Below are positions 42,103 to 48,100 of a stretch of 64,000 nt of DNA, piece by piece. Made by a program: the position numbers and the translations under genes. The notes beneath the pieces were generated by a model. The model saw nothing but the letters and a program-made list of their open reading frames with translations, made no database searches and was not told where the DNA came from. Position 1 is the first letter of the stretch; every line of letters begins with the position of its first letter. Source of the DNA: Tubulanus polymorphus (Eukaryota > Nemertea > Palaeonemertea > Tubulaniformes > Tubulanidae); contig NC_134034.1 in the NCBI RefSeq assembly GCF_964204645.1, positions 10,907,414-10,971,413 on the forward strand. Reading direction: 5' to 3'.

Positions 42103-45100
42103 TCACGTCGTCACTTCCCACAATCCCTCCAGCGTAAATCCATCTCGTAATTTCTCGATAGCGAGACCGAGTTCCTCCGAGTAGACGGCGTCGCGATCGC
42201 GTTCTTTATTCCCGTCCGCGAAATACGCCTGTAATTATCGAAAAAACATCGTCGTCGTTAATTATTCGACCGGCAGACGTTAGAAATTCGAATATTCGAA
42301 TTTCGAAATCGATGATTCTTACGGCGAACGCGTCCGATTGGTCGTTTGTGTTTTCGATTTCGACGTCATCTTGAACCGGTTCGACGGTCATTACATCGAG
42401 ATCTTGAGGCTAGAAAAATAAAAAACATCCGACCTCTTAAGAAGCGTGCGTGCACCCTCCATCGGAGAAAACGACTACAGGGTGAAATGAAGAAATCCCA
42501 CACTTCGAATTAAATCATAGGATAGAATTTATTATTTTGAAACCACAACGTTTCGGCTGTTGACTAACAGCCATCATCAGGTGGAATGATTGATAGATGA
42601 TCATCATTCCACCTGATGATGGCTGTTAGTCAAAATAATAAATTCCATCATATGATTTAATTCGAAGTGTGGGATTTTTTCATTTATCTACAGTATACAC
42701 GGATTAAAGTGTTTATTCGACAACTGACTACAGGGTTCTTACAGATCGGGATAAATCTCAGAGAATTCCAGATTTAGTGAGCAAAACCCACAATTGGATA
42801 TTACCAATGATACCAACAGCTTATTCGATCAGTTTTCGAAATTTTGACTAAACTTCATCAGAGAAATGGAAATTTGTGGGTTTTGTTCATCAATTCTAAA
42901 ATACTGACATCAATATCAGTCTCTACCAGTCATGAATTCCAGATTTATTCCCAGATTTATCCAGGAATTCCAGATTTGTCCACGAAAAATCAGCGAATTC
43001 TGACACTTTTAATCATTCAAATTCAGGGGAGTCTGGGAATTTGTAGTCATTTGTTGTTCTTGCTAGTGTTGAGTGACACAAAGAACCTCTATATAAGAAA
43101 CAGCCCTCACTGAGGATATCTCCATAATATAATCAGGGAATTTTTTGCCAAAGCAAGGATTGTCTTAAATCCTAAAACCAATCTGAAGTTGTTACGGTGG
43201 ATTTGTCGCTATAGAACTAAAATGATGTTAGACAGGTCTAAACCTAGTCAGTAACCTGTCTGTGGTTAAGTTTCACGATCGGATATTTTCACGTTGGTAT
43301 AAGCCCATCCGATCATAAAAAGCTTACCACCAACGATTAGGTAACTAACTAGTCTAAACCCTGACTATATGGAACGGGCGCCACCTGTCAGAACCTGCAT
43401 GAACTACGAACATCAGGAATAATCGTTAAGGGTCATTCATTTATTACGTACGTATTAGGGGGAGGGGGAGGGGTCAGTGCAATTGCGTACTGTAATGCTT
43501 AATTTCTGTGAAAAGATGGCCGATTTTGCGTACAGAGGGGGAATGGGGTTGAAAAATTCAAATTTTATGCGTACGTAATAAATGAATGATCCCTTATAAG
43601 TTACGTTACTTACGGCTTCTTCGGACTCGTATTCGATGCCGAATATCGGACACGCGCTGTATACGCGATGTAAACTCTGGATCTCTTTACAAGCCTCGTG
43701 TAGTTTCTCGACCGGGTCGATTCGAAACCCGAGCACGTAACCACCGCTCTGTACGGAACTCTCTATCACTAACGCTAAACCGAACTTAGACTCGCGAACT
43801 TTCACCGATTTCTGTACGAAATGAAGAAATATTTCGATAAATTCGATCGATGAAATGTTCGTGAAATATACCGCGAGAATTGTTGAATCAGTTAAAGTAA
43901 TATCGAAATATTCACGATGAAATAATAAATATGAAATGCTACGATTGTTGAAAGACTAAAAAGTTTTAAAATTTCTAAAACTCAGAATACTAGAAATATT
44001 TCGGATGGTTGCTACCACCCATCTACCAGATTAAAATGTCATTTCTTTGCCATTTTAGAATGAAGAAGGGTCGTAGGAATATCCCGAAATATTTCTAGTA
44101 TCTCATACTGTTGTTTAGTCTTTCAACAATTGTGGAATTTTACAGTTGTAAGAATTGCTGATATGAAATCGCACATTAACGACTATACGCTAATAGTCAT
44201 CGTCAGGAATACTGTATAAAAATGTCAGTATTCCTGAAAATGACTATTAGGATATAGTTGAAACGTCGAATAAACACACAGCACAGGAAAACAGTTTTTG
44301 AGGATGGTTATGCGAGTAGAATACTACTGACAGTTTTTGAGGATGGTTACGCGAGGAGGATATTACCGACGGTTTTTGAGGATGGTTACGCGAGGAGGAT
44401 ATTACTGACAGTTTTTGAGGATGGTTACGCGAGGAGAATATTACTGACAGTTTTTGAGGATGGTTACGCGGGGAGGATATTACCGACAGTTTTTGAGGAT
44501 TGTTACGCGAGGAGGATATTACCGACAGTTTTTGAGGATGGAGGAGGATATAACTTACAATCTGTAAATATGGAATGCTAACGTTGAAAGATTCGTTCAT
44601 ATTCGCGTGCCAGACAACGCGCACATTTGTCACAAAAAACGTGCCTAAATTTCCCTGCAAAAGTAAAACAAATGTATCAAGAACCCTTTCTTAAGATTCA
44701 GAGGTTTCTTTGCTTGGACTGATTTCGTGATATTTGATTAGAAGAATATAAAAGAAGTGAAGCAATTGTCGAGACAAGATTTCAAGTAATTCTAGGACGC
44801 TTAAAAATAATCAACTAATACAAGTAAGTAACAGTTTAATAGTCTTTCGTGCCACCAAAATTTGAAACAGTTCAGTCTGAAATAAGAAAATAATGTGATC
44901 AAACAGAAAACAGTGATCACTCACTAAACATCAAAGCATTAATTACTACCTACAGATCAAAGACTGTAATTACTAACTTTATTGAGTGATCACTCCACAT
45001 ACAATCATCATGGTACTGATTAGATCAGGCAATTAGCTAATTAACAGAGTGATCAGTCCACACTTGAAGATCAAAGAGCTGACTAGATCAGGTAATTAAC

Positions 45101-48100
45101 TAATTAACAAGAGTGATCAGCCCACATACAAACATCTAAGAACTGATTAGATCAGTCAATTAGCTAATTGATTAATTACTTCCAATAATAAAGGAACAGT
45201 AAATCACTGATTCAGTGATAATTACTAATTCACTTTGATGTTTAAATCAAAGAGTAACAGATTAATTGATGATGTATTGTTGTACGCGGTTGTCGGGTAT
45301 AAATACCCCGGACTTGCAGCTGGATTCAAACATTCTACAATGGAACATCGAACAGCGAACAACCAGAACGAGAAGAGTTTATTCCTGCAGCCGGAGGTCG
45401 TCGAAACGATGAACGCCGAAGAAACAGTCGAACGTCTGTTCAGCGTCGAGACGAAATTCGTGAAAGCCGCCAAACAGATCGTCGTACTCGAACGGAAAAT
45501 ACAACATATCGTCGAACGCAACAATCGTTACCGCGGCGACGCCGAGTGTTGCTCGGTTCGTATTCAACTTCTGTCGCTCGGCAACACGAAGGACGCATTT
45601 TATTTGTACGCGCAGAAAAAAGCGGCCGAAATTCATCTGTTGAAACAACGTCTCGTCGACCTGTGCTGAAACGGCGAACAACTCCTCGAGCAACGGTTCT
45701 TTTTAGAACCATCTCAACGTCCCAGAATCAGTCGGTCAAGGCTCTCAACTCTGCTTAACTCAAATTATGGTTCTTTTTAGAACCAAATCAGGTCTCGACC
45801 TCATATTATCCTCAAAGGTTCTTTTGAGAACCACTTTTTTCCTTACGTAGCTAAAAATGGACCTGATCGGTTCAGAATATCCCTTAAAACGAATGTAGGT
45901 AAAAATGTCCCGGGAAATAATGTCCCCAGAAAAAATGTCCCGGAAAAGATATCAGTTAAACAGTTAAGCATGAAGGCCCAGCACTAGTAATGGGGTTTAA
46001 AATGCAAGTCAATAGAATGGAGGCGCTAAGACCAAAAATATGGGTCTCTTAAGAAAAAGTTTTCAGAAGTGTTTTTGTTTTGAATGAAAACTCACCTGGT
46101 CGCTAGATAGATTCCACGCGCCGAATATCTGATCGTAGATTTGTTCCTGCGGCAGCAGACGCAGCTGTTTATTATTGATTAAAGCGCCGCGTAGTTTCAG
46201 CTCACGGTACATTTTAGACGTTTCGTACGCTCTACGAGAATAATCAGTAGAGAGGGTGATAATATTAGACAAAACGTCAGTTTTAGAGATTGGAGATTGC
46301 AGGTGAACCCACTCACCTGTGAACCGCTATCACCGTCGTAAACAGTCTCGGCGAACCAGGAACCTAAAATTGAATTCAAAATATATTTTCTCAATTCAAT
46401 CGATTTCTGTGAACATAACATACCAGGAACCTCCAGGAACCTCAAAATGAATTCGCTTTTCAAATCGGTTAAGTTTTCATCAAAAATTTCATTCGATTCG
46501 GATTGAAATGTAGGGATGCGGAAGACCGAGGGACTACTAGCGACACCTGGTGGATCCTCACTCGCCATAAGCGGGCATCCTTGCTCGCCATCGTAACAAT
46601 GATTTGAATAATTTCGGATTTTTTTCCGAATTTCGATCCAAAAACGTACCAGATTAGTGAATATGAACTCAAATCTGGTGTTGTTACATTTTGTAAGGAC
46701 GTAAAGAGCTTCGACTGTTCCTCGAATTTTCTGAAATTTTTAAGAAAAAAAAACACAAAATTGACAGTGTGTACGTACGTAAAGCGCCCTCTGGTGATCA
46801 ATAGTCTAACTATCCTTACCGATTGAGCTGTTTTTGTAGTTATGTTCAGTACACAATTGTAACCAATCGCTGAAATTCACAAACTTGAACTATCTATTTA
46901 TCTGTATGAATTTATAGCGAGAAATTTTCTGAGAAGGTTTTGTGACTTACACAAATTCACTCGAATCATTGTGTGTGAATGCCATATTATTCGCAGATTC
47001 GTTACCAACAGTTGACCTGAAATATAACGAAAACTCACGATTCAAGTCAGTTCTAAAACGGCGGGGCCCGGTCGCGGAGACGCGACGCAAAGTTGCACAG
47101 ACGTGACGTAAGTCCAAAACTTGTCTTAAATCTGACGACTTATAGCCTAAGATTGGCTATAGAAATGTTGGAAATGACTAATAGCCTAAGATTGGCTATA
47201 GAAATGTTGGAAATGACTTATAGCCTAAGATTGGCTATAGAAATGTTGGAAATGACTTATAGCCTAAGATTGGCTATAGAAATGTTAGACATGACTTATA
47301 GCCTAAGATTGGCTATAGAAGTGTTATGACCTTAGGCTGGTCATAAATTTCTAATCCTTGACTGCGCAACCGTACCAGGCCGGGTATAAATCAATAAGGG
47401 TCCATTCGTTCCACTGTTGACCGTTGGAACTGGTTCCTGGTGGTCCAGTGAGCCGAGGGCCGGTCCGGTTCACTAACCTCTATCACCGTTATTGCCTTTT
47501 GTATCTTCGACCGCGTCCAGTTTATCGATCAGTTTTTCTCCCGGTCGCATTCGCATTTGCCTAAAACAACATAAAAACAGACGCGTCTAAATCACCGGGC
47601 GTACAGTTAAAATAAAGCGCAGGGCCAGTTTAACAGACTCGTATTACCTTTAACCCGTGGGCTAATTCAATTCATTTTCAATTTAGTTAGCCCCCGGGTT
47701 GAAGGTAATACCGGTCTATAAAACCGGGCCGTGGATATTTTTGATGCGGTCAGTTCAAACATAATTCATACTTACCAGCGATGCACAACACAATTATGTA
47801 CGATTAGTTTTTAAAAGGAATCAGAGTTTTTTAATCTAAGCACTTTTGAATATTCCATAGATATCGTGTTACAACATGCTATATACCTGTAGAATTAATG
47901 AGGATTAAAAACACCTTAAAAACCATTCATTAGATTTTCTCATCCCAATTTTAATTTTTTTTTTAGAGAAAGAAATTTTACGATTCCATAACTGGGTCAG
48001 ATTGGAGTGAGAGAGGGAGGGAGAGAGAGATAGAGGATGGCATTTCTATAACTACCCAAATCTTTCACCTATGATTAGAAAGGCTAAAACTTAAGAGACA

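Follow-up and report, generated by a model that had tools for sequence, protein, structure and literature searches.

Histone-type promoters and 3′ ends in a dispersed gene family of Tubulanus polymorphus

A small intronless gene within an intron of BBS5 in the nemertean Tubulanus polymorphus belongs to an expanded family of about 25 open reading frames (ORFs), which probably encode small alpha-helical-hairpin proteins from genes that share the architecture and the mRNA processing of replication-dependent histone genes. The family had no name before this analysis. The gene lies in a stretch of 64,000 nucleotides that was analysed as a whole (hereafter the window), in which an earlier note had described a non-histone, intronless gene with the promoter and 3′ end of a replication-dependent histone gene. 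The histone-type signals are upheld, both by their match to the histone genes of the same genome and by their conservation across the family. The gene is no singleton, but one of about 25 relatives.

The gene in the BBS5 intron and its three hairpins

The window gene is antisense to BBS5, whose flanking exons lie at 44634-44654 and 46141-46164. The TATA box, the lack of introns, the stop codon 25 nt before the first stem-loop and the two additional stem-loops, as originally described, can all be read directly in the sequence. The short leader proposed for this gene is less certain. A distance of 42 nt between the TATA box and the ATG at 45340 would give a very short leader if that codon is used, but translation may instead start at M24 (45409), a possible alternative to which the first ATG aligns in many paralogs.

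The tandem units upstream of the gene possibly constitute a promoter element. TGATCA occurs four to five times within 700 nt upstream in L001-L004, versus zero to two times in other members of the family. Neither AATAAA nor ATTAAA is present within 400 nt past the stop codon of the window gene. Two other repeats were observed nearby: one with a period of ∼39 nt, close to the BBS5 exon on the upstream side of the gene (44291-44541, corresponding to self-matches at 452-702 of L001), and a 15-nt unit, AAAAATGTCCCGGGA, present in three tandem copies just past hairpin 3 (45901-45947).

Table 1. Features of the window gene (window coordinates)
Feature	Position	Strand	Basis and remarks
Three tandem ∼63-nt units with TGATCA and AATTAGCTAATT motifs	44984..45169	+	upstream of window gene
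TATA box (TATAAATA)	45298..45305	+	sequence; ATG 42 nt further on
Single-exon ORF, 109 aa + stop	45340..45669	+	ATG 45340, TGA ends 45669; paralog matches
Stem-loop 1 (GGTTCTTTTTAGAACC)	45695..45710	+	25 nt past stop; RF00032 26.5 bits, E 4.1e-5
Downstream element, histone-type-like (TCCCAGAATCAGTCGGTC)	45720..45737	+	inside R1 match; 9 nt past stem
Stem-loop 2 (GGTTCTTTTTAGAACC)	45769..45784	+	RF00032 18.3 bits; without downstream element
Stem-loop 3 (GGTTCTTTTGAGAACC)	45817..45832	+	RF00032 26.0 bits; without downstream element

All three hairpins carry a perfect 6-bp stem and a 4-nt loop, are nearly identical in sequence and fall within 140 nt. The hairpin pattern is matched three times in the window where 0.16 matches are expected, and none of 100 shuffled sequences reaches three. 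Genome-wide (268 Mb) the 16-mer pattern occurs just eight times, three of them at this gene (control, 1), which rules out the dispersed-repeat origin that had been named beforehand as speaking against the hairpins. Three histone-type stem-loops are thus confirmed.

When a span of 901 nt was searched with the Rfam Histone3 model (RF00032), all three hairpins scored below the gathering score of 34. Because these scores were sub-gathering, a covariance model termed R1 was trained exclusively on the 3′ ends of 11 true histone genes from this genome (H3, H4, H2B, two for H2A and six for H1), each segment comprising the hairpin and ∼30 nt downstream. R1 matches positions 45690-45739 over the full length of the model (32.7 bits, E = 1.4e-7), covering hairpin 1 and the downstream element. 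Hairpins 2 and 3 give partial matches limited to the stem (10.7 bits, E = 1, and 11.2 bits, E = 0.74, respectively), and the best E value across ten unrelated control loci is 1.8.

Where the histone genes of this genome carry TCCCAGAAAGAGCCAGT, the window gene carries TCCCAGAATCAGTCGGTC, which is presumed to be the U7 target, and stem-loop 1 is likely to form the processed end of the mRNA. Since this end is expected at about 45714-45717, hairpins 2 and 3 would fall in the discarded part of the transcript, and the gene likely has one processing site followed by two extra hairpins rather than three sites. The earlier claim that three such ends in series are very unusual is therefore weakened: the excess of hairpins is real, but a U7-type element is present at hairpin 1 alone.

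A family of predicted helical hairpins under purifying selection

Tblastn-type searches of the genome located 20 places with the window protein as query and five more with two paralogs. These ORFs are spread over many contigs, and their identity to the window protein ranges from 50% down to about 23%. Every one is a single open frame, some are arranged as head-to-head pairs (C11, C4, C3), and a TATA box is present upstream of most. Specifically, TATAAATA lies 41 nt ahead of the aligned ATG in L002-L004, and in most others the TATA box lies ∼55-160 nt ahead of their own ATG.

Most members are under purifying selection, with dN/dS values of 0.10-0.25 in most pairs, both close and distant, although these values are rough in some deep pairs where dS is saturated (as for the window gene versus L004, dN/dS 0.19). 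Coding constraint, whose absence had been put forward as evidence against the original reading, is therefore found among the paralogs. A dN/dS of 0.99 for the pair L056/L058, in which the hairpin is absent, suggests that these two copies are decaying.

The structure predicted by AlphaFold2 from 18 family rows contains helices at residues 26-63 and 68-108 (mean pLDDT 84.6, pTM 0.70), and the window protein is predicted to be an alpha-hairpin of the coiled-coil type. This agrees with the small helical or coiled-coil protein that had been suspected from the sequence, as does the finding that it is not a recognisable histone: there is no match in Pfam at E ≤ 10 and no significant fold match. Histone identity was ruled out, as the prediction shows two long helices and neither a histone fold nor a linker-histone domain is found. 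NCBIfam and PDB sequence profiles likewise gave nothing significant for the family protein, and Foldseek returned generic structural matches, none of them significant (best E 0.22 in PDB and 0.06 in BFVD), so that identity with a known domain was also dropped.

The earlier note had suggested that the gene could encode a new S-phase or germline chromatin protein. Family proteins have no match to a chromatin domain, and because their pI runs from 4.6 to 9.8 and is not consistently basic, nothing marks them as DNA-packaging proteins. From the predicted fold, the protein may act as a coiled-coil partner that dimerises or oligomerises and is needed in step with DNA replication.

Histone-type ends within and beyond the family

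A hairpin and downstream element are found past the stop codon in 17 of the 25 members, 15 of them at E ≤ 1.4e-4 and two in weaker or variant form. The 15 matches to R1, all among the first 20 members (the window gene, L002-L010, L012, L051, L052, L053 and L055), fall at the members' own 3′ ends with E values from 1.4e-4 to 3e-12. L011 gives a weak match (13.2 bits, E = 0.17), and L098, which R1 misses, was recognised by eye and by an independent pattern from its variant stem (GGCTC-TATTTGT-GAGCC) and intact element, TCCCAGAAAGAATCAGTC. Hairpin and element are absent from the remaining eight (L054, L056, L057, L058, L095, L096, L097 and L099), and at least some members are therefore presumably polyadenylated.

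Stem mismatches occur in L002-L004 and L006, and the loop is altered in L052 and L098. Among 11 aligned family ends, pairing is retained in 97% of stem cells, and three of the six stem pairs have changed on both sides (G-C/A-U, U-A/C-G and C-G/U-A). Stem covariation is 0.370 versus 0.202 for shuffled alignments (0 of 500 reach 0.370), and no slid pairing exceeds 0.109. Both controls have recognised limitations where sequences are related, and the ends were selected in part for their match to R1. On the protein tree, whose deep branches are poorly supported, the hairpin bearers fall into several separate groups, which fits a hairpin ancestral to the family and subsequently lost in some lines.

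Most elements of the family lack the histone AAAGAG core and carry AAACAG or AATCAG in its place, and pairing with U7 may therefore be weaker than in histone genes. One variant, TCCCAGAANNARTCNGTC, is present in eight places in 268 Mb (control, 1), namely six family genes, one inverted copy of the 3′ end of L004 and one remnant of that end.

Other non-histone ORFs of the genome have R1 scores as good as those of the family or better. A RING-type ORF of 113 aa that neighbours a PC4-domain ORF (PF02229) is followed by an R1 match at E = 5e-18, and this RING family is matched at 25 genomic places, many of which contain stop codons. The four RING/PC4 loci with hairpin and element (L021-L024; C8:2995003, C12:10443866, C1:14510878 and C1:19226934) look mobile or virus-like. 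A 330-aa transposase ORF of the IS1595/Merlin type (L026 and L027; C3:15758071 and C11:8859436; PF12762, E = 7e-21) also has a histone-type hairpin and element past it (R1 E = 1.6e-12). Histone-type 3′ ends are likewise carried by cysteine-rich, RING-like ORFs of 241 aa and 90 aa (L030, L037, L038, L041 and L018-L020), where, as throughout, the RING assignment is a weak sub-threshold Pfam match combined with cysteine spacing.

The RING/PC4 and transposase loci resemble the family in that a non-histone ORF is followed by hairpin and element. However, they encode unrelated proteins, their elements are nearer the histone consensus, and the 113-aa RING family, unlike the alpha-hairpin family, has many broken copies. 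Because mobile-like, non-histone ORFs also carry these signals, histone-type ends seem to behave as portable modules in this lineage.

Across the genome, the pattern of a hairpin followed by AGAAA has 58 matches versus 14 in the reversed control, and about half of these matches make up the tandem histone cluster. At three other loci (L043, L044 and L090; C2:24210381, C4:26332936 and C1:4835087), a repeated GGCCCTTATAAGGGCC hairpin with a TGTCCAGAAAGAGCAG element has no clear ORF ahead of it.

We consider it reasonably probable that a selected, non-histone host family is expressed through SLBP/U7 processing without poly(A), as histone mRNAs are, and that this pathway has become a general route in the lineage, mobile elements included. 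Alternatively, hairpin and element could have come with, or be carried by, mobile or virus-like DNA, such that the family is cargo of selfish elements and the end serves the element rather than the host. The histone-type ends of the PC4/RING elements, of the 90- and 241-aa RING-type ORFs and of the IS1595/Merlin-type transposase are in keeping with such an origin, as are the many interrupted copies of the 113-aa RING family, the 3′ end of L004 repeated in inverted orientation, and the bounded blocks of ∼600-1250 bp that young family copies have in common. Nevertheless we regard it as quite unlikely, since the family is diverged with intact frames and mostly purifying selection, its downstream element differs from those of the RING and transposase loci, and none of its proteins is like a transposase or known viral protein. 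Moreover, neither terminal inverted repeats nor target-site duplications were seen in an unsystematic look; flanks of family copies were viewed over about 3 kb.

It is very improbable, in our estimation, that the hairpins are a disused relic, for example of a single capture from a histone gene, and that the mRNAs are polyadenylated. The eight members lacking the element, and the AATAAA lying no more than 300 nt from the stop codon in L003 and L010, would be accounted for, but compensatory stem changes and an element kept at 25-50% protein identity argue for continued use. A further proposal, which would add to the host-family explanation without replacing it, is that the window gene uses hairpins 2 and 3 as back-up or alternative processing sites or as SLBP sponges. 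Their perfect, almost identical stems invite this idea, and L051 has a degenerate second hairpin and element that look as if its own 3′ end had been duplicated in tandem. We nonetheless think a function unlikely, as neither hairpin has a downstream element and both would be discarded on cleavage at hairpin 1.

Proposed processing and comparison with histone genes

In known metazoans, U7 snRNA base-pairs with a site downstream of the hairpin, and cleavage of the pre-mRNA takes place between hairpin and site (PMC7026596). For the family, a TATA promoter would give rise to a single-exon transcript, SLBP would bind the hairpin just past the stop codon, and the U7 snRNP would pair with the element 9-10 nt past the hairpin. 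Cleavage between the two, at about 45714-45717 in the window gene, would yield an mRNA that lacks poly(A). Its supply would be linked to the cell cycle, or it would be stored in eggs and embryos, as are histone mRNAs. Judging from the cis-signals, SLBP/U7 processing and the absence of poly(A) are likely for family mRNAs. If so, expression should track DNA replication or be maternal, and is probably linked to S phase or to the oocyte and embryo. The helical-hairpin proteins would then probably be partners that dividing or early embryonic cells require.

Searches for U7 snRNA with Rfam RF00066 and two patterns gave weak candidates only, the best scoring 14.2 bits where the gathering score is 34. 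This candidate gene (L086/L094, near C6:19333150) has CGCTCTTTGAGATTTGTCTTGG followed by a hairpin.

To our knowledge, the combination of hairpin and U7-type site is thought to be exclusive to histone genes in animals, and histone mRNAs are held to be the sole non-polyadenylated mRNAs of metazoans. The openly accessible literature, a scope outside which most subscription journals fall, contains no precedent that we could find for non-histone genes with histone-type ends. If the host-family reading is true, the view that histone mRNAs are the only ones without poly(A) is false for this clade, and ∼17 non-histone genes with the full set of cis-signals would show that genes other than those for histones can capture the histone pathway. 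The family would point directly to proteins required in step with histones and would offer an open test of the purpose of the SLBP/U7 system, and the occurrence of such ends on mobile elements suggests a signal that travels as a module.

Likeness of the alpha-hairpin to FAM110 and other coiled-coil families is generic, with non-significant sequence and fold matches; the FAM110 C-terminal domain (PF14160) gives a weak, sub-threshold profile match to one family member only (E = 0.068), and the family is assigned to none of these. Compared with metazoan replication-dependent histone genes, the family differs in encoding a two-helix hairpin that has no histone fold and is not consistently basic, in being dispersed over many contigs, and in having the element variant AGTCAGTC in place of AGCCAGT. 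What the two have in common is the TATA box, the intronless gene, the short 3′ UTR, the hairpin with its 6-bp stem and T-rich 4-nt loop, an element of the CCCAGAAA type 9-10 nt past the hairpin and, among some family members, divergently transcribed gene pairs.
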